Source: Lysobacteraceae bacterium SCN 69-320
GTDB taxonomy: Bacteria; Pseudomonadota; Gammaproteobacteria; Xanthomonadales; Rhodanobacteraceae
DNA: 64,000 bases
Assembly: GCA_001725155.1 (NCBI GenBank)
Contig: MEFP01000005.1
Location: forward strand, 1-64,000
Direction: 5' to 3'
Shown here: positions 53,563 to 64,000 of the stretch, in pieces
Numbering within the stretch: position 1 is the stretch's first letter
Layout: each line of letters opens with the position of its first letter
The notes under the pieces: model-generated
What the model was told of the DNA's origin: nothing
Database searches by the model: none
What the model saw: the letters and a program-made list of their open reading frames with translations, nothing else
Made by a program: the position numbers and the translations under genes

Positions 53563-56500
53563 TCAACCGTCAGAATCTGGCGTTCGCGGGATACAACTTT
53601 CGAGACACCGGATCAATTCGTGCCGTGCCTCTTCCAGGCACGTCGAATACTTCCAGACAATCCACGGTTTGCACTTGGTTATCGCCTTGCGGTGCTTGCA
53701 GCTGCACCGGTTGTGGCACGTATCCGGCATATCAGGGCAATACAATTCGTCCAGCCCCGAACCGCCGCAGGACATGCCGCCGGACCCGCGCCGCCGCAGG
53801 AGTCCATCCGGATCGGTGAAATCCAGCACTGCCGAACCGGCATATTCGTAAGTGGCCCAGGCACCTTCGAGACCAATCGGATCGCTTTCGACGTAGCGGC
53901 CCGTCGAAGCCTCATAGTCGCGACGATAGTTGTGGTTGAGACCGGTCTCCGCATCGAAATACTGGCCGGGATAGCGCAGCGAAACGCCTTTGCCGGTCAC
54001 CAATGTATCCGCCTCATGCTCGCCGAATGCGCTGCCCAGCAGATCCCAGCGCCACTCCACCGCATTCGTCGCCGGATTGACCGCGACCCGTGGTGTATCG
54101 AGGTGGTCGCTCTCCAGATAGCTCATGGCGGTGCCCCGGACGATCGCGACCGGCGTTGTGCCGAGGAACAGGTAGACTGAGGTGCCACGCGAGCCGCCGG
54201 CACTCTGCGACTGCTCGGCAAGGATCTGGCCGTCGGCGTCGTGCAGGTAGCGGCTGGTGCTGGTCGTCGCCCCGCTGACGGTGTGCTTGCGTGTACGCTG
54301 CTCGAACGCCGAATAGTCGTATCCGGTCGTTCCCGTCGCCGCCACGACACTCGTCAGCCGGTTGCGGTCGTCGTAGTCCAGCGACACGCCGTCGCCGCGG
54401 CCAGTCGTGTTGCCGTTCGCATCGTAGCTGCGCGCAGTGCCCGCGACCGCAGCCAGGCGATGCGTGCCCGACAGATAGGCATACGCCTGTGCAGGCTGTC
54501 CGGCGAACTGTTTCGACATGCGATCACCGGTACGGTTGTAGCCGTAGTCTTCGACCAGCGCTCCGGTCGCGTCCTCGACTCGCGTAATGCGGTAAAGGTT
54601 GTCATGAACATATCGCCGCTGCGCCGGCGTGGTACCTAGGGCCCCGTCTACGCCAGCGATATTGCCCATCACGCCGACATCGAACTGCAGCGCCAGACCG
54701 TCAGCGGCGGAGCTGAGCACGCTGTCGATCGCATAGTTCTGGTCACGCATTTTCGTCAGCGTGCGGCCGTTGCCGTAGGTCAACGATGCGAGCGGACCGA
54801 ACGGGTAATGGCTAGCGGTAACGACGGCGACGGGCGTCGCGGACGCATTGGCTTTCCAGGTCAGCTGGCTGGGGCGGCCGCTCTCGTCGTAGATGTATCC
54901 CGCGATACCACCGCCCGGATAGGTGATCGACGCAACGCGATCGGCCGGCGTGTAGGTGAACGTCGCGCTGAGTACCGAGCTGCCGAGGGAATGCGTCCTT
55001 CGCGTAACGTTGCCGCGACGATCATAGCAGTGCACCGTCGTTCCGCTCGAATCCGTTACCCGCGTCAGCCGTCCCAGCGGGAATGAGCCCGGGCATCCGG
55101 TGATCGCATCGCTTTCGTCGTAGTGGACGTTCACGCCCAGCGACGATGCCGGATACGAGATCTGTACCAGCCGGTTCAGCGCATCGTAGACATAGGCCGA
55201 CACCACACCGCGGTTGTCGGTCTGGGAGATGCGATTGCCGGCCCGATCGTACGCGAAGGCCGTATGCCCGGTATCGGGACTCGACAGCAAGGTCTGGTTG
55301 TCGAGCGAATCGAAGGTATATGTCGTGACGAGGCCGTCCGGATCGGTGATCGTACGGACGTTGTCGCGCGTATCGTAGGTGTATTCGACGGTCGATGCGG
55401 CAGTCTCCGGGTCGCTGCCAGCATAGTCCTCGATCGTTTTCACGAGCCGATTGAGCGGGTCGTATTCCTGGCGCGTCTCAATACCGCGACCATCCTTTAC
55501 CGCGACCTCGTTGCCGTGCGCGTCGTAGCCGTCGAGAAGACCGCCGCTGTCGTAAGGCGAGGAGTCGCGCGTGATCGCGTCGGCGGCATCACGTTCACGC
55601 ACTAGGCGGCGGAGCGAAGTGAATTCCCGCGAAAGCAACCGCTTGAGCCCGACGCCGGGAGTCGCCGGATTGTAGCTGGAGTCGAATGTTTCTTCCTTGA
55701 GCCGATTGCCGGCGGCGTCCAGTGTGTAGCGGATGCGGTTGCCGAGGCTGTCGGCGATCCCGACGAGCCGGTGTGCGTCGTCGTAGTCGTAGTCCAGGTA
55801 TGCGCCGCCCGGGCGCTGTACGCGTACGATCTGTCCGGCGGCGTCGTAGGTGAAGCTCGTCGTCGCATCACTGGGGTCTGACGCGCCGCTCGCCAGCCCG
55901 CGTACGGTGGTGGACTGCAACCGGCCTCGGAGGTCGTAGGTACTGTCGGTCAGCGTGCCGTTCGCATCCCGCATGCGTCGTACGCGGCCGCTGCGGTCGT
56001 AGGCGACGCGCTCACTGACGCGACCGAGCGCATCGGTCACGGTATGCAGGTCCGCCTTGCGGTGGCAGTTGCCGCCGGCGACGTCGCAGCCGGATTCGTC
56101 GGTAGCCAGGTAGTACGCGTACGTCGTGACGTCGTCCTGCCCGTTCATGCCTGCCTCGGTCGGCGAACGTGGGCCATCGGAGGTTCTCAGCAGACCGACC
56201 ACGGGACACGACGAATTCGGCGCCGTGACGTCCGCGGCCTCGCAGTAGACGTAAGTCCAGCGCCGGACCGGAACCGGCGCCGCCGGTGCCGTCGTCGCGC
56301 TGCAGACGTAGGCCATCGCGGCCGCATTGCCGACGTCGAACTCGCATTCGGCGAGCACCTGTCCACGCGTGTTGTAGACCCATTGAGTACGCGACTCCAG
56401 ATCGTTCGCTGCGTTGCGCACGCGGCGTTCGACCGGCAGGTTGAACGTCGCGTGCCAATCCGTCTCCGTCGAACGCGACTGTGTCGCCGGGCCGGTCGGC

Positions 56501-58512
56501 TGCAGACAGCTGTAGTGCCAGCTGCCCCAACCCAGCGGCGCACCACTGCTGCTGCCCGGAAACGGTGCCGGCGACCAGCAAGTCCCGGTGGTACACATCG
56601 TTCCGTAGGTGTCCGGATTGAATGTCGACGGAGCCGGACAACTCGCAGGCTGGGTAAAATTCTCACGCTGCACGAGTTGCTGGCCGCGATTGCTGAAATC
56701 GTAGTCCGTGACGACACCGCGGTAGTCGACGGTGCCGGTCGGATTGCCGTCGGCGTCGTAACCTGTCCGACTGTGCGCGATGACGCCGGCACAGGTTTCG
56801 CTGGTGCAACGTTTGCGTCCGCGCTCTTTCACGGCGCCGTTGATCAACGCCAGGTCGCGCTGTTCGAAACCGCCGAGCACGCTCGTGGATCGGGCGAACT
56901 GGAACGGCGGGTTCGAGCCGCTCGAATAGGTGATCGTGAGCCGGTCGGCATAGTCCGAGCCGTGCCATTCATCGTTGACGCGGCTGTGCGAATAGCGATA
57001 GGTGCCGTAGCGATCGCCGTTTTCGTCGACGATGCCGGTCAGCAGCGTGCCGGCAATGTAGTTCAGATTGTGCGCGGGTTCGTTGTACAGATAGCTGCGC
57101 ACCGCACCGCCGGGCCGCGTCACGCCGGTGAGCGCGTGGCCCTCGCTGTACTGGTATTCGTGCACTGCTCCGGCCGCATCGATCACGCGGACCAGACGCG
57201 CCAGCGTGTCGTACTGCAGTTCCAGCGCGCGGCCGCGGGAGTCCTCGACACGGACCAGCAGACCCTCGAACGGCGCGACGGCGGCAGGCGTCGCGATGGT
57301 GCTGTAGAGCAGCTTGAGCGCCTCGCCGGTCGGATAGCTGATCGCCAGCAGCCGGCCCTGCAGGTCGTAGATTTCCACCTCATCGCTTGCCGTCCGGAAC
57401 TCCCAGCCGGCGCGCTGGCCCAGCTTGATGATGTCGCGCAGCGCCTCTGGCTCGTCCGTACTGCCGGCCCACGCCCCGTCGATCCAGCGGAAGTAGTGAT
57501 AGTCGCCGTCGTGTCGCAGTACCGTCACCACCGGCGGCTGCCCGTCGACGAAGGGCTCCGGCGCAATCGCCCGCTGGTAGGTATGGCGCCAGTTCGGGCC
57601 GAGGATGCGGTGATGGTGATCGTCCGGATTCTGCGCTCCGCTGCCGCGCGGTTCGTAGAAGCTCGAACTCGAGTAGTAGCGCACGAATTCGAGCGGACTG
57701 GCGCCGGCCGCGCGAATATCGCGCTCGACTTGCGTCTTCTCTCCGGTGACGCAGTCCATCGGGTTGCCGAGTTCACAGACCTTCGAGCGCGCAACCTTAC
57801 AGACATCGCCGACTCGTGCACTGCCCGGCGGGCAGTAGACGCGTCGCAAACAGTTGCCGATTGCGCCGAAGAACTGGTCCCCGACGGTGTGGTTGCCGCA
57901 TTCGGGAAATGAGTACGTGACGCATTGGCCGTCGGTCAGCGAGGGAATGTTCTGGACGTAACCGTGCTTGATCCAGTACAGCTCGCCGAGATCGAACTCC
58001 GTCTCGACCGGATTCCACACCGACGGACAGAGGCCGCCATAGCTCGGACGCGTGCAGGGCGGCGGCGGCGCCTGGGAATAGTTGTCGATGGCCTGGTCCA
58101 GCGCTTCGCCTTCGGTCTTGCATTTCGGTCCGGGCGAGTCGATACCGGAACAGGGTTGCGAATCGGCGTTCACGAACGTCCCCTGGCATGCGAAGTCCGT
58201 CGTCTCGGGCCTGGGACATTGCGCCGCTCCGCCGCTGGCGACACATTCCCAGAGCTGCGCCTGTACGGCGCCCGGAATGACCGCTGCCAGGGCAAGCAGC
58301 ATGCCGGCAACACGTGCTCCGTGCTGTCTTTCCGCACGAATCCACGACCAATTCGTTGCGAGCCCGCTGACGCTCCGCATGAATGCTGCGATTGCGCGAA
58401 TGATCGCCTCGGCCCCACTCGCAGACGCCGCTGCGTGTTCGTGCGGCACAAGATGCGCGCGAACACGCAAGCGACGTCGGATTCTCGTGAAACGCTGGAT
58501 ACGGCTGCTCAT
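53563..58512 (-). CDS. RHS/YD-repeat protein with DUF6531-like domain and cysteine-rich C-terminal tail
   Basis: 1649 residues from the ATG at 58512, which has GGGGAG 5 nt upstream. An unusual ~65-residue N-terminal extension precedes a signal-peptide-like stretch (VAGMLLALAAVIPGAVQA). A Cys-rich N-terminal region (~87-200) is followed by the DUF6531 opening DCVTGEKTQVERDI and then many YD repeats (for example TTSFTYDAAGQIVRV, YDYDDAHRLVGIAD). The RHS core ends near YDYSAF...YFDAETGLNHNYRRDYEASTGRYVESDPIGLEG. The 76-residue C-terminus after DPDGL carries nine cysteines and matches no toxin I know. RHS proteins form a beta cocoon around a C-terminal, often toxic, domain. No immunity gene or VgrG/EagR chaperone neighbours were seen. 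Confidence 0.92.
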   Translation of the reverse strand: MSSRIQRFTRIRRRLRVRAHLVPHEHAAASASGAEAIIRAIAAFMRSVSGLATNWSWIRAERQHGARVAGMLLALAAVIPGAVQAQLWECVASGGAAQCPRPETTDFACQGTFVNADSQPCSGIDSPGPKCKTEGEALDQAIDNYSQAPPPPCTRPSYGGLCPSVWNPVETEFDLGELYWIKHGYVQNIPSLTDGQCVTYSFPECGNHTVGDQFFGAIGNCLRRVYCPPGSARVGDVCKVARSKVCELGNPMDCVTGEKTQVERDIRAAGASPLEFVRYYSSSSFYEPRGSGAQNPDDHHHRILGPNWRHTYQRAIAPEPFVDGQPPVVTVLRHDGDYHYFRWIDGAWAGSTDEPEALRDIIKLGQRAGWEFRTASDEVEIYDLQGRLLAISYPTGEALKLLYSTIATPAAVAPFEGLLVRVEDSRGRALELQYDTLARLVRVIDAAGAVHEYQYSEGHALTGVTRPGGAVRSYLYNEPAHNLNYIAGTLLTGIVDENGDRYGTYRYSHSRVNDEWHGSDYADRLTITYSSGSNPPFQFARSTSVLGGFEQRDLALINGAVKERGRKRCTSETCAGVIAHSRTGYDADGNPTGTVDYRGVVTDYDFSNRGQQLVQRENFTQPASCPAPSTFNPDTYGTMCTTGTCWSPAPFPGSSSGAPLGWGSWHYSCLQPTGPATQSRSTETDWHATFNLPVERRVRNAANDLESRTQWVYNTRGQVLAECEFDVGNAAAMAYVCSATTAPAAPVPVRRWTYVYCEAADVTAPNSSCPVVGLLRTSDGPRSPTEAGMNGQDDVTTYAYYLATDESGCDVAGGNCHRKADLHTVTDALGRVSERVAYDRSGRVRRMRDANGTLTDSTYDLRGRLQSTTVRGLASGASDPSDATTSFTYDAAGQIVRVQRPGGAYLDYDYDDAHRLVGIADSLGNRIRYTLDAAGNRLKEETFDSSYNPATPGVGLKRLLSREFTSLRRLVRERDAADAITRDSSPYDSGGLLDGYDAHGNEVAVKDGRGIETRQEYDPLNRLVKTIEDYAGSDPETAASTVEYTYDTRDNVRTITDPDGLVTTYTFDSLDNQTLLSSPDTGHTAFAYDRAGNRISQTDNRGVVSAYVYDALNRLVQISYPASSLGVNVHYDESDAITGCPGSFPLGRLTRVTDSSGTTVHCYDRRGNVTRRTHSLGSSVLSATFTYTPADRVASITYPGGGIAGYIYDESGRPSQLTWKANASATPVAVVTASHYPFGPLASLTYGNGRTLTKMRDQNYAIDSVLSSAADGLALQFDVGVMGNIAGVDGALGTTPAQRRYVHDNLYRITRVEDATGALVEDYGYNRTGDRMSKQFAGQPAQAYAYLSGTHRLAAVAGTARSYDANGNTTGRGDGVSLDYDDRNRLTSVVAATGTTGYDYSAFEQRTRKHTVSGATTSTSRYLHDADGQILAEQSQSAGGSRGTSVYLFLGTTPVAIVRGTAMSYLESDHLDTPRVAVNPATNAVEWRWDLLGSAFGEHEADTLVTGKGVSLRYPGQYFDAETGLNHNYRRDYEASTGRYVESDPIGLEGAWATYEYAGSAVLDFTDPDGLLRRRGSGGMSCGGSGLDELYCPDMPDTCHNRCSCKHRKAITKCKPWIVWKYSTCLEEARHELIRCLESCIPRTPDSDG

Positions 58513-58653
58513 GTTTGCTCCCCGAGCGAGTTGGCAAGGCGCGACGACGGGCATCGGGCAACCCCGACTCCTAGCCGTACGCAACCGCATTGTTGAACTG
58601 CACGGACGTCGCCGCGCATTTCCACGATGCGTCATTGTCCATTCGGAAATCAG

Positions 58654-58905: not shown

Positions 58906-59724
58906 CTAGCCGACCATGTCGCCGCGCCGCGCCCAGGCCGCAATCCGCGCATGCAGCGCGTCGAGGCCGTCGAACAGCGCGGCGGGACCCGGCTGCAGAA
59001 TGATCGGCGACTTGATCTCGTGCAGCTCGCCGTCGCGCACGGCCGGTATGGCGTCCCAGCCCGGGCGTGCGGCCACGGCAGCGGGGCGGAAGCGCTTACC
59101 GCACCAGGAACCGAAGATCAGATCCGGCGCGCGGCGCACGACTTCCTGCGCATCGGCAAGGATGCGGTCGCGTGCGAGGGATTTTTCGGCGAGTTCGGGA
59201 AACACGTCGTCGCCGCCCGCGATGCGCGCGAGTTCGGCGACCCAGCGTATGCCGGTGATCGGTGGTTGATCCCATTCCTCGAAGTACACGCGCGGCCGCC
59301 GCGGCAGTGCAGCGGCGGCCGCGGTCACTGCGGCGATGTGCGCTTCGGCGCGTTGCGCGAGGGCTTCGCCGGCTTCGGCACGGCCGACCATGCCGGCGAG
59401 GCGGCGGATGTAGCCGAGGATGCCCGCCACCGAGCGGTGATTGCTGATCCAGACTTCGACGCCGGCCTTGATGAGGTCGCGCGCGATGTCGGCCTGGATG
59501 TCGGAGAAGCCGATCACGAGATCGGGCTGCAGTGCGAGGATTTCGCCGATCTTCGCGCTCGTGAACGCCGATACCTTGGGCTTTTCCTTGCGCGCCCGCG
59601 GCGGCCGCACGGTGAAGCCGGAGATGCCGACGATGCGATCCTGCTCGCCGATCGCGTAAAGAACCTCGGTCGGCTCCTCGGTCAGGCAGACGATGCGCGA
59701 GGGATAGAGGTCGGGCCGGTTCAC
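58906..59724 (-). CDS. BtuF-like cobalamin/metal-chelate binding protein without signal peptide
   Basis: 272 residues from a GTG at 59724 that overlaps the pdxH stop (GTGA); the upstream ATG of the open frame at 59763 is inside pdxH. The fold is a class III periplasmic binding protein: PSRIVCLTEEPTEVLYAIGEQDRIVGIS (in part VCLTEEPTEVLYAIGEQ), KVSAFTSAKIGEILALQPDLVIG, then YFEEWDQPPITGIRW and PDLIFGSWCGKRF. Unlike BtuF/FhuD, it has no signal peptide in this frame. No ABC permease or ATPase gene is next to it. The coupling to pdxH is a cofactor-related hint but does not define the ligand. Confidence 0.85.
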   Translation of the reverse strand: MNRPDLYPSRIVCLTEEPTEVLYAIGEQDRIVGISGFTVRPPRARKEKPKVSAFTSAKIGEILALQPDLVIGFSDIQADIARDLIKAGVEVWISNHRSVAGILGYIRRLAGMVGRAEAGEALAQRAEAHIAAVTAAAAALPRRPRVYFEEWDQPPITGIRWVAELARIAGGDDVFPELAEKSLARDRILADAQEVVRRAPDLIFGSWCGKRFRPAAVAARPGWDAIPAVRDGELHEIKSPIILQPGPAALFDGLDALHARIAAWARRGDMVG

Positions 59725-60347
59725 GGATACAGCATGCGCCGCTGCCAGGCGCCGTCGCGCCATTCATAGCGCTGGCGCTCATGCAGGCGGAAGTTCGCGC
59801 CGTACCAGAACTCGATGAGGTCGGGTCTGACGAGATAGCCGCCCCAGTGCGGCGGACGCGGCACGTCGCGGCCGGCGAACTCGGCCTCGTAGTGCGCGAT
59901 GCGCGCTTCGAAATCGCCGCGCTCGGGCAGGGTCTGCGACTGCAGCGAGGCCCAGGCGCCGATCTGGCTGCCGCGCGGCCGCGTCGCGAAATAGGCATCG
60001 GAATCCGCCGCGGGCAACTGCTCGACGCGGCCTTCGACGCGCACCTGCACACCTTCGCGCAGCTGCTTCCAGTGCAGGCACAGCGCGACATGAGCATTCG
60101 CCGCGAGTTCGCGGCCCTTGGCGCTGGTGTAGTTGGTGAAGAAGCGCAGGCCGTCGGCGCCGACACCCTTGAGCAGCACGATGCGCGAATGCGGCCGGCC
60201 GTCCGCGTCGATGCTGCTGAGATTCATCGCACTGGGTTCGGGATCGCCGCTGGCGGCCGCGGCGGCCAGCAGCGCGTTGAGTTCGGCCAGGGCTTCGGGA
60301 CAGATGGTCACGGCAGGTTCGTCCGGCGAAAGCGTCGATGCTACCAC
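59721..60347 (-). CDS. pdxH: Pyridoxamine/pyridoxine 5'-phosphate oxidase
   Basis: 208 residues from a GTG at 60347 with a GAGG site 7 nt upstream; no ATG fits better. It makes pyridoxal phosphate from PNP or PMP using FMN. Features are SSIDADGRPHSRIVLLKGV, FFTNYTSAKGRELAAN, CLHWKQLREGVQVRVEGRVEQL (in part WKQLREGVQVRVEGRVEQ), PRGSQIGAWASLQSQ, PPHWGGYLVRPDLIEFW and the C-terminal LHERQRYEWRDGAWQRRMLYP pattern (in part LHERQRYEWRDGAW). Length and motifs are standard. It starts 7 bp after the histidine kinase stop. Confidence 0.95.
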   Translation of the reverse strand: MVASTLSPDEPAVTICPEALAELNALLAAAAASGDPEPSAMNLSSIDADGRPHSRIVLLKGVGADGLRFFTNYTSAKGRELAANAHVALCLHWKQLREGVQVRVEGRVEQLPAADSDAYFATRPRGSQIGAWASLQSQTLPERGDFEARIAHYEAEFAGRDVPRPPHWGGYLVRPDLIEFWYGANFRLHERQRYEWRDGAWQRRMLYP

Positions 60348-60354
60348 GCAGACC

Positions 60355-61872
60355 TCAGGCCGCCGTGCCGGTGCCCTGCACCACGCGGGCGAACTGGCCG
60401 AAGTCCAGCGGCTTGGTCAGATAGTGGTCGGCGCCGGCGGCCAGCGCTGCGGCGCGCGCCGATTCGGTCGCGTTCGCCGAGACCGTGACGATACGGCCTT
60501 TGTAGCCTTGTGAACGCAGCTGATAGACCGCGGCATTGCCGGAAAGACCCGGCAGTTCCACGTCGACGAGCACGAGGTCGGGCGCCTGTTCGGCGACGGC
60601 GGCCAGCGCCGCAGCCGCGGTTCCGGCGATGCGTGCGCTGACGCCGAGATCGCCGAGCAGCACGTCGAGCAGCGCAGCGACATCCGGATCGTCGTCGACG
60701 ATGAGCGCGGTCAGGCCGCGCCGGCGCGGCGCCGTATCCTGCGGCGTCAGACCCGCCGCGCCGAGCGACGGCAAGGTGACGCGGAACGTACTGCCCTGCC
60801 CGACCGTGGAATCCAGGCTCAGCTCGCCCGACATGCGTTCGACGAGACGCTTGACGATCGACAGGCCGAGACCCGCGCCGCGCGAGCCGTGCTGCGCGCC
60901 GCGGTTGAACGCCTTGAACACCTTGGCGCGCGAAGCCGTGTCGATGCCCAGGCCCGTGTCGCTGACTTCCAGCTGCAAACGGGCACCGTCCCAGCCGAGC
61001 TGCGCGCGCACGTAGCCGCGCTGCGTATAGCGCAAGGCATTGGACAGCAGATTGATCGCAACCTGGCGCAGCTTGACCGCGTCGAACTGCGCTTCGGCCG
61101 GCGGCGCACCGCCCGCCTCGACGGCCAGGGCCAGGCCCTTCTCGGCCGCGAGCGGCCGGAACATCGCATCGAGGTCGGCGATCAGTGCGGCGATGTCGAT
61201 GCTGCCCGGATCGAGCAGGCTCTCGCCGGCCTCGCCGCGGCCGTATTCGAGCAGGTTCTCGGCCAGCGCGAACAGATAGGTCGCATTGCGCCGTAGCGCA
61301 CCGAGCGCCTGGCTGCGCGTGCCGGCGCCTTCGCGTTCGAGCAGGTGCAGATAGCCGAAGATCGACGTCAGCGGCGTGCGGAATTCGTGGCTCAGGGTCG
61401 CGAACAGCGCATTCTTCAGCGCGTTGGCTTCTTCCAGCCGCGCGCGCTGCTGTTCGAGTTCGCTCTTGATCTGGCGCAGCCGCGCCAGGGTGCGCGATTT
61501 CTCGATACCGGCCAGCACGGCGTCGTTGCCCAGCTGCTGCTGCGCCTGGGTGCGGCCGTGTTCGTCGCCGGCATCGAGCAGCAGCAGATGGAACTGGTCG
61601 CCGGCCGGAATCAGGTGCACGTGCGCATGCCGGCCGCCGGCCAGCTCGACGAACGGCAGATCCTGTTCCTGGTCGTGCGGCAGCCCCAGGAACAGGTCCT
61701 GCAACTGGTGCACCAGCGTGCCGGCGCCGTCGGCGTCGATGCCGTGATGCGCTGTGTCGCCGTGCACGTCCACGAGCTGCCACTGCGCATCGAAAGTCAG
61801 CAGCAGCGGCCGCGCACGCGCGCGCAGCAGCTCGTTCAGATAGGTCCCTACCTCGGCGGGCATCGAGCTCAT
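60355..61872 (-). CDS. Cytoplasmic hybrid histidine kinase with C-terminal receiver
   Basis: 505 residues. A PAS-like N-terminal domain (~20-100) and a coiled coil (~115-150) have no transmembrane helix. The HisKA domain carries the phospho-His near residue 162 (ATLSHEFRTPLTSIFGYL). The HATPase domain has N-box INLLSNALRYT, G1 VSDTGLGID and G2 SRGAGLGLSIVKRL. A receiver follows (~383-500): acidic pair in LIVDDDPD, phospho-Asp near 437 in LVLVDVELPG, and Lys in YLTKPLDF. It phosphorylates itself and passes the phosphate to its receiver; no DNA-binding output is attached. Its start overlaps the GTPase stop by 4 bp, which links it to the GTPase. Confidence 0.93.
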   Translation of the reverse strand: MSSMPAEVGTYLNELLRARARPLLLTFDAQWQLVDVHGDTAHHGIDADGAGTLVHQLQDLFLGLPHDQEQDLPFVELAGGRHAHVHLIPAGDQFHLLLLDAGDEHGRTQAQQQLGNDAVLAGIEKSRTLARLRQIKSELEQQRARLEEANALKNALFATLSHEFRTPLTSIFGYLHLLEREGAGTRSQALGALRRNATYLFALAENLLEYGRGEAGESLLDPGSIDIAALIADLDAMFRPLAAEKGLALAVEAGGAPPAEAQFDAVKLRQVAINLLSNALRYTQRGYVRAQLGWDGARLQLEVSDTGLGIDTASRAKVFKAFNRGAQHGSRGAGLGLSIVKRLVERMSGELSLDSTVGQGSTFRVTLPSLGAAGLTPQDTAPRRRGLTALIVDDDPDVAALLDVLLGDLGVSARIAGTAAAALAAVAEQAPDLVLVDVELPGLSGNAAVYQLRSQGYKGRIVTVSANATESARAAALAAGADHYLTKPLDFGQFARVVQGTGTAA

Positions 61873-62369
61873 GGCGCCAGCCTCTGCGCGAGTTCGGCGA
61901 AGCCGGCCTCGACGCCGTCGCCGCTGAGCGCGCTGGTCTCGAACACGGCCAGATTGCGGCGGATCTCCGCGAGTACGGCCGGCGCGACCTCCCAGCGGTC
62001 GATCAGATCGAGCTTGTTGACGAACAGCACGCAGGCCGGATCATTGATGACGTCGCGCGCCTGCATGGCCAGGTTCAGCGCCGCGCGCAGGCTGGCTTCG
62101 CGCGTGCCGTCGGCGACGAGGATCAGACCGCTGGCGCCGCGCAGATAATTCTTGTTGACGCTGTCGAGCGCGGCCTTGCCGGCGATGTCCCAGACCACGA
62201 GCTTGAGGTCTACGGCGTCGGTCAGCGCGACGACGCGGCTGTCGACCTTGACTCCGACCGTGGTCAGGTATTTCTCGGAAAACGTATTGCGCACGAAGCG
62301 CGCGACGAGGCTGGTCTTGCCCACGCCGAAGTCGCCGAGCATGCATACCTTGCGTGCGATCTCGCTCAT
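61869..62369 (-). CDS. Ras-like small GTPase (bacterial Rup/MglA-related type)
   Basis: 166 residues, the size of a Rab/Ras G domain. P-loop GDFGVGKTS (12-20), switch I Thr in YLTTVGV (36-37), G3 WDIAGK (60-65), G4 NKLD (118-121) and G5 ETSAL near 144-148 are in the right order and spacing. The residue equivalent to Ras Gln61 is Lys 65. There is no C-terminal lipidation Cys. Genuine Ras-superfamily GTPases are uncommon in bacteria; the best known, MglA, controls cell polarity with a roadblock-domain GAP. The gene overlaps both neighbours by 4 bp (OmpA-like and kinase), so the three are translated together. Confidence 0.93.
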   Translation of the reverse strand: MSEIARKVCMLGDFGVGKTSLVARFVRNTFSEKYLTTVGVKVDSRVVALTDAVDLKLVVWDIAGKAALDSVNKNYLRGASGLILVADGTREASLRAALNLAMQARDVINDPACVLFVNKLDLIDRWEVAPAVLAEIRRNLAVFETSALSGDGVEAGFAELAQRLAP

Positions 62370-64000
62370 TCCCCCTCCGTCGGCGCCGGTGCGAGGCGCA
62401 GGCTCGCGGCGCGTTCATCGACCGCCGCGTCGTCGTCGGCAGCGCCGGCGATCACGCGTCGGTCGGGTCCTATGCCGGCCGGCTGCAGCTGCTCGCAGAG
62501 CCAGCGCGCCCGGCGCTCGCGCAGCGAGCGGTTCGTCGCATTGGAACCCGGCTCGTCGTTGTGACCGTGGCACTGCAGCACGAGTTGGCGCTGCAATCGA
62601 GGCGCGAGCGCCGCCAGGCGCTCCACGCTGTGCAGCAACGCCGGCAGTTCGGCCGCATCGCGCTGTTCCAGCTCGCGCACGAAATGCACGCGCAGCAATG
62701 GCAGCGCTGTGGCCAGCTGCTGCCATTCGGCCAGCAGTGCGGCATGGGCGTCCTCGACCGCATGCAGGCGCGCGACATCGACCGCCGTGACGCCGGCGAC
62801 GCGCTCGGCGCGCGTCGGCGCCTGCGCCACCCAGGCCGCATCGGCGGCGCCGGCCAGACTCAGCACACCGTCATGCACGGTCAGGTTCACATCGGCCGGC
62901 GGCGCCAGCGCCGCGCGCGCGCGACGCGCGACGACGGCATCCTCGGTCGACAGATAGCCGCGCAGATCGAGCTCGACAGCCGCATCGGCCGGCAGCTGCG
63001 CGCGTATCGCCGGCAGCGGCGCCTCGGCTGCCGCATCGACGAGGCCGACGACGCGGACGCGCCGGCCGCCGAGATCCTCGACCTTGTCCAGATGCAGGCC
63101 CGGCCAGTTCGCCAGCGTATGGGATACGGCAGCGAGCTGCTGCTGCCACTGCCGTTCGCGCCAGGCCCAGACCGACAGCGCGGCCAGCACGACCAGCAGG
63201 AACAGCAGCAGCGGCCAGCGCCGCGCCGGCAGGCCCGTCGGCGCCGACGCTTCCTCGGCCAGCACGCTCGATTCGATCTGCTGCAGGTTCAGGCTGTCGC
63301 GGATCTCGGCCTCGTGTTCCGAGGTCGGCGCGGCCTGGGCGTCGTCCAGGGTCAGATGGATCTGTTCCAGCCGCTCGCGCAGCAGGGTGCGCAGCGCCGG
63401 CGGCGGCGCGCCGCGGATGAATGCGGCGAGATTCGCGCGCGGTCCCGACAGTACCCAGACCAGATGTTCGCCGACGCTGGCCGAATCCAGGCTGCCGCCG
63501 TCCTCGCCGCTGCCGACCGAGTCGCGCACGAAATCGCCGATCGCGGTCAGCATGCCGGCGATCGCGTCGGCGTCGAGATCCGGCAATTCCGGTGCCGACA
63601 CCCGCGACAGCACGAGACCGCTGTCGCGGTCGATCAGGAACAGATGGTCGAGGCGGTAATGCATCGCGTGACGCATCACGACCTGCGCATACGGCAGACC
63701 GGTGCGCCAGGACTCCAGGCGCCAGCGCAGTCCGCGCAGGGTGAAGCTCGATTCGAGCGCGCGGTTGAAGTTCTCGTTGAAGTCGCGCATCGCCTCGGCG
63801 ATGGCCTTGCGGATCGCCGGGCCTATGACCGGGAACAGCAGCTCGACGATGCTCTGGCGCTGCGAGCGCACCGCTACGGCCAGGGCATCGGATACCGGCG
63901 TCTTCAGCGCCTGGGCCAGACGCTGGCGCCCGTCGCCGCGCTGCGCGCGCTGCAGCAGCCCGGGCAGACGCTGCGGCAGCGCGGCCTGATCGCTCTCCAG
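62366..64000 (-). CDS. OmpA/BON membrane protein with N-terminal roadblock-like domain, partial (5' end beyond the right edge)
   Basis: The frame is open to the window edge; a GTG at 63871 is only an internal candidate, because 43 more codons precede it. 544 residues are visible. The N-terminal half is cytoplasmic. A stretch from YRLDHLFLIDRDSGLVLSRV to RTLLRERLEQIH reads as helix-strand-strand-helix-strand-strand-helix, like roadblock/longin domains. One transmembrane helix (WPLLLFLLVVLAALSVWAW) follows. The periplasmic part has BON-like repeats (VHDGVLSLAGAADAAWVAQA) and an OmpA-type peptidoglycan-binding domain (CHGHNDEPGSNATNRSLRER, with conserved Asp and Arg). It overlaps the GTPase start by 4 bp and may anchor the GTPase-kinase pair to the envelope. 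Confidence 0.85.
   Translation of the reverse strand: MESDQAALPQRLPGLLQRAQRGDGRQRLAQALKTPVSDALAVAVRSQRQSIVELLFPVIGPAIRKAIAEAMRDFNENFNRALESSFTLRGLRWRLESWRTGLPYAQVVMRHAMHYRLDHLFLIDRDSGLVLSRVSAPELPDLDADAIAGMLTAIGDFVRDSVGSGEDGGSLDSASVGEHLVWVLSGPRANLAAFIRGAPPPALRTLLRERLEQIHLTLDDAQAAPTSEHEAEIRDSLNLQQIESSVLAEEASAPTGLPARRWPLLLFLLVVLAALSVWAWRERQWQQQLAAVSHTLANWPGLHLDKVEDLGGRRVRVVGLVDAAAEAPLPAIRAQLPADAAVELDLRGYLSTEDAVVARRARAALAPPADVNLTVHDGVLSLAGAADAAWVAQAPTRAERVAGVTAVDVARLHAVEDAHAALLAEWQQLATALPLLRVHFVRELEQRDAAELPALLHSVERLAALAPRLQRQLVLQCHGHNDEPGSNATNRSLRERRARWLCEQLQPAGIGPDRRVIAGAADDDAAVDERAASLRLAPAPTEGE

Follow-up and report, generated by a model that had tools for sequence, protein, structure and literature searches.

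What does a small Ras-like GTPase do when its gene is placed between those for an OmpA-type membrane protein and a hybrid histidine kinase? This arrangement occurs in Lysobacteraceae bacterium SCN 69-320, near the end and on the minus strand of the DNA stretch analyzed here (positions 1 to 64,000 of contig MEFP01000005.1, assembly GCA_001725155.1; referred to as the window). An earlier sequence-only reading had described the three genes as joined by 4-base ATGA overlaps, and all three genes and both overlaps were confirmed. It had also taken them for an undescribed module. That proved wrong, because all four components of the Group 1 Rup module, which Wuichet and Sogaard-Andersen (2014; PMC4316618) predicted and proposed as a signaling system, occur here. 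We conclude that the operon is a member of this already predicted module, and that the new part of value is a roadblock/longin fold predicted for its membrane protein.

A member of the Group 1 Rup module

As set out in the text of PMC4316618, the genes of Group 1 Rup GTPases stand beside those of a coiled-coil protein, of a protein in which a domain of unknown function often precedes a membrane helix and an OmpA domain, and of an output protein. The outputs are typically GGDEF/EAL proteins or histidine kinases whose N-terminus carries an invariant glutamine, whereas the GTPases lack the G3 glutamine; its supply in trans was suggested there. Among prokaryotic groups, Rup lies closest to Rab/Ran/Ras/Rho (PMC4316618, PMC4915359). 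According to the former text, no Rup gene is coupled to MglB, which is part of the distinction from the MglA family, and no Rup GTPase had been experimentally characterized as of 2014.

The full operon, read from the window and the adjoining DNA, consists of genes for an OmpR-type response regulator (232 aa), a coiled-coil protein (217 aa, after a 42-bp gap), the membrane protein (572 aa, after 17 bp), the GTPase (166 aa), and the kinase (505 aa), followed by pdxH. The first two genes lie upstream, beyond the window edge, as do the N-terminal 28 residues of the membrane protein (62366..64000 in the window, to 64084 on the contig). The GTPase (61869..62369) is a small single-domain Ras-superfamily protein (Pfam Ras, 8e-28) inside the 150- to 240-aa range of Group 1 Rup. 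It reads WDIAGK at the G3 motif, and the catalytic glutamine is absent from this place in all module GTPases compared (0/65). By G3 motif and gene context, the GTPase fits Rup (Rab/Ras-like) better than MglA.

In the whole genome, the module GTPase is the sole strong hit to PF00071 (96.7 bits); three further hits of 21 to 24 bits, at or just above the cut-off, fall in open frames of 477 to 614 aa. Four other Robl_LC7 domains occur in the genome (C12:430122-430352, C8:161531-161758, C11:84323-84562, and C11:71860-72093).

A predicted roadblock/longin fold in the membrane protein

In the predicted model, the membrane protein begins its ordered part with an N-terminal, cytoplasmic domain (residues ~142 to 278; 63251..63661, minus strand) that shows the alpha-beta-beta-alpha-beta-beta-beta-alpha order of the longin/roadblock fold. 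Its matches include MglB, Mon1-Ccz1, and TRAPP longins, and longins that are not guanine nucleotide exchange factors (GEFs) score about equally. Many of its invariant positions are carried by the segment LDADAIAGMLTAIGDFVRDSV, which sits at the position of the roadblock alpha-2 helix. Aligned profiles of the domain and Robl_LC7 showed a weak similarity in matching register (P 0.001, against 0.075, 0.26, 0.36, and 0.52 for control pairs). A profile search against PDB sequences gave nothing useful (best E 0.9). The roadblock assignment is drawn from the fold because hhalign with narrow sequence sets gave a probability of only 1.5%. Since a Pfam scan of the domain in 19 members found nothing above chance, with Robl_LC7 unmatched up to E 1, and the profile-profile probability was 22%, we regard the fold as the same and membership of the Robl_LC7 family as unproven. 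By fold, then, the domain appears to be of the roadblock/longin type, as had been proposed from the sequence, and it is probably dimeric.

The single transmembrane helix (residues ~290 to 308; 63161..63217, minus strand) was located from sequence and corresponds to helix 262 to 297 of the structure model. Because two arginines precede it, we infer from the positive-inside rule that the N-terminus faces the cytoplasm and the C-terminus the periplasm. A periplasmic BON-like region follows (residues ~330 to 442; 62759..63097, minus strand), with Foldseek matches to BonA (1.5e-5), OsmY (4e-5), and DolP (9e-5), and then an OmpA-like domain (residues ~456 to 565; 62390..62719, minus strand). In Pfam, both remained under the cut-off (BON at E 0.017), whereas Ras, HisKA, HATPase_c, and the receiver were recognized in the operon proteins. 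The OmpA part has a nearly invariant D510 and an invariant R525, 15 residues apart, an Asp/Arg pair that we take to serve wall binding in such domains. The predicted folds and this pair agree with the peptidoglycan binding claimed earlier.

An invariant glutamine in the output proteins

The output protein of this operon (60355..61872, minus strand) comprises a PAS-like domain (residues 20 to 103; 61564..61815, minus strand), a signaling helix, HisKA, HATPase_c, and a receiver. The fold matches of its N-terminus, predicted as a model of residues 1 to 160, are mostly PAS. We also considered this N-terminus as a second roadblock domain and rejected it: the order of elements is the same, but there is no profile link. 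On the helix that leaves the PAS-like domain lies Q113 (codon 61534..61536, minus strand), present in 65/65 output proteins, while the adjacent Q112 is found in 55/65; in the ten outputs without Q112, the place of Q113 depends on the MAFFT alignment. By description, Q113 probably corresponds to the invariant N-terminal output glutamine of Group 1.

Ten output proteins and that of the window were typed by Pfam scan, and the rest (including L132) by motif or similarity. Pfam identified HD_5 (HD-GYP-type) outputs in L115, L116, L122, L130, L135, and L137, GGDEF-EAL in L138, a kinase with receiver (HK-REC) in L129, a HATPase with a sub-cut-off HisKA match in L139, and a HATPase alone in L074. The last belongs to nine degenerate kinases (L072 to L080, from Pseudoxanthomonas, Lysobacter, Luteimonas, and bins; e.g., L074:9237-10736), all of which have lost the G1 motif and the second N-box asparagine, taken as the catalytic one. 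The phospho-accepting histidine is gone in eight of the nine, L078 retaining it. All nine keep Q112 and Q113, which argues for a role of the N-terminus apart from phosphotransfer. Judging from the sequences, the outputs are interchangeable, as an N-terminus with Q113 is common to pseudokinases, HD-GYP proteins, and the GGDEF-EAL protein.

A proposed envelope-to-kinase route

With moderate confidence, we propose that the operon works as a Group 1 Rup GTPase signaling module leading from the envelope to the kinase. The BON/OmpA part of the single-pass membrane protein would bind peptidoglycan or the outer membrane, and its cytoplasmic longin/roadblock domain would be a natural platform regulating the GTPase, a role with which nucleotide exchange, activation, or mere recruitment are alike compatible. 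The Rup GTPase, devoid of its G3 glutamine, would cycle on this platform and in its GTP form dock on the PAS-like domain and helix at the N-terminus of the hybrid kinase. This N-terminus would be the obvious place for an effector contact, and Q113 makes it a candidate GTPase-activating protein (GAP): the residue may provide the missing catalytic glutamine and complete GTP hydrolysis, an idea of glutamine supply in trans that originates with Wuichet and Sogaard-Andersen (PMC4316618). The output protein would then be effector and GAP at once, and hydrolysis would alter the signaling helix and so set the activity of the kinase, or of a cyclic di-GMP (c-di-GMP) enzyme in other loci. In this genome, the OmpR-type regulator may relay the signal to transcription. 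Gene order, domain content, and conservation are seen directly and the folds are predicted, whereas we infer all of these interactions, the dimerization, the direction of the signal, and the assignment of GEF and GAP roles. Among the gene neighbors, the only place where such a link was sought, there was no evidence for polarity or for the pili or division effects suggested earlier.

Alternatively, GAP or GEF activity could reside in the longin/roadblock domain, much as MglB acts on MglA, with Q113 merely holding the coiled-coil helix together. MglB and Mon1-Ccz1, both among the fold matches, are reported to act on GTPases (PMC11016934, PMC5216073), and the concentration of invariant positions at the alpha-2 place is consistent with this. 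However, a purely structural Q113 would not predict complete identity across kinase, HD-GYP, and GGDEF-EAL outputs while Q112 varies, and we consider this explanation unlikely, although it fares best among the alternatives.

The neighboring response regulator

The earlier reading placed a phosphorelay at the end of the pathway; an OmpR-type response regulator gene was found at the head of the operon. Across loci, a response regulator adjoins 29 of 39 kinase outputs versus none of the 16 outputs that are pseudokinases, HD-GYP proteins, or GGDEF-EAL proteins (Fisher p 1.8e-7); it is absent beside the pseudokinases of L072 to L080 in all eight checkable loci. The base of this count is 69 loci (44 + 25, without the window itself), of which 14 were dropped: nine of L040 to L083 lacking an output, coiled coil, or upstream sequence, L129 and L139 to L141 without a coiled-coil hit, and L134, whose upstream sequence was too short. 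L119, with an output frame of just 144 aa, was classed as a kinase by default, as was L114, though its histidine pattern was unmatched. We rejected the association as a significant correlation and hold it to be suggestive, because the GTPase tree, built from the module's own GTPases, gives one to two independent contrasts, at which level the association is not significant. The regulator is likely a partner of the kinase in this genome, outside the core module.

These data also bear on a signal running in reverse, in which kinase and receiver would come first and the GTPase last, as the output that alters envelope attachment through the membrane protein. Wuichet and Sogaard-Andersen (PMC4316618) posited the GTPase as the output in actinobacterial conservons, and retention of the N-terminus by nine pseudokinases without catalytic motifs would suit such a scheme. 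On the other hand, a DNA-binding response regulator adjoins most kinases, and the scanned c-di-GMP-enzyme outputs have no other Pfam input domain (L116, L122, and L138 keep Pfam-unassigned stretches). We therefore regard the reverse direction as rather improbable and retain the route from envelope to kinase.

Conservation of the gene order

Scanning species genomes with the N-terminal domain yielded 44 loci in named Lysobacterales or proteobacterial bins, the nearest named relative found being Tahibacter caeni. The coiled-coil gene lies within 200 bp upstream in 40/44 (three of the remaining four start at a contig end). The GTPase follows immediately in 40 of the 41 loci uncut by a contig end, with a spacing of exactly -4 in 36. 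The output gene comes next in 39, a junction at which the -4 count is biased by the choice of start codon. The coiled-coil assignment draws on sequence and on sub-cut-off Pfam hits to coiled-coil families. In the host family, the whole membrane protein was matched, sometimes weakly, in 29/147 genomes, and at class level the N-terminal domain in 30/369, both counts including the genome itself. Among the 29 other class regions, the membrane protein occurs in 28, the coiled coil in 24 of these 28, and the GTPase downstream in 25 of 27 uncut. Adjacency thus extends to the related loci and across the class.

No GTPase was found downstream of the ompA-type gene in L121 and L126. These genes (L121:4799-7463 and L126:4280-7175) are longer, with frames of 888 and 965 aa, and each has two separate matches to the N-terminal-domain profile. 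L083 has a partial domain match and no GTPase, L142 has no ompA hit, and the L136 region ends at the contig end.

That the genes are merely cotranscribed, with no interaction, is very improbable: operon neighborhood alone proves little, because pdxH (59721-60347, minus strand) likewise begins 7 bases past the kinase, but its distance differs among the 44 loci, whereas the order coiled coil-ompA-ras-output persists class-wide in divergent sequences. In the closest relatives pdxH is near the operon, and in several Dokdonella loci it is ~0.6 to 1.2 kb off or inverted. Labeled from sequence reading, a 1,690-aa RHS/YD-repeat-like protein is encoded at 53563-58635 (minus strand) of the window, and an exosortase-like membrane protein slightly upstream of the operon in L009 (8731-9270, minus strand).

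Relation to known systems

The operon shares with the published Group 1 Rup module the coiled coil, the protein combining an unknown domain, membrane helix, and OmpA, the GTPase without G3 glutamine, and the output with an invariant glutamine. The longin/roadblock fold, the PAS-like output N-terminus, the OmpR-type neighbor, and the HD-GYP and Q113-keeping pseudokinase outputs found here do not appear in the consulted text of PMC4316618. Among the matches listed in a literature search for roadblock or longin domains in Rup modules, with subscription papers outside its scope, only PMC4316618 describes the module. The MglA/MglB polarity module likewise has a small GTPase, a roadblock-fold partner, and receiver-domain proteins; here, in contrast, the GTPase fits Rup, and the roadblock-like domain sits on a membrane tether in one protein with BON/OmpA and goes unrecognized by Pfam Robl_LC7. 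Actinobacterial conservons (CvnA-D) also unite a histidine kinase, a roadblock protein, and a small GTPase in one operon, but according to the text of PMC4316618 their kinase is a membrane protein, their GTPase belongs to the MglA family, and a response regulator is missing. Rab systems with longin-domain GEFs (TRAPP, Mon1-Ccz1) rank high in the structural comparison with the domain; these are eukaryotic multisubunit GEFs, and the likeness is one of fold only.

Tentatively, and with somewhat less than even confidence, we suggest that a longin/roadblock partner is hidden in Rup systems. Anchored to peptidoglycan and probably dimeric, this domain would catalyze nucleotide exchange on a Rab-like GTPase or activate it. 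The effectors, which are interchangeable (kinase, pseudokinase, HD-GYP, GGDEF-EAL), would each contribute the missing glutamine in trans via Q113 and thereby switch themselves off. If this is true, the pairing of a longin/roadblock domain with a GTPase would also be a trait of Rup, the branch nearest to eukaryotic Rab/Ras, and if the membrane protein bears such a partner by fold, both prokaryotic branches, MglA and Rup, would share regulatory logic. As a single invariant residue, Q113 would then allow a direct test of whether an effector completes GTP hydrolysis in trans, and the state of the envelope would gain a route to the control of kinases or c-di-GMP.
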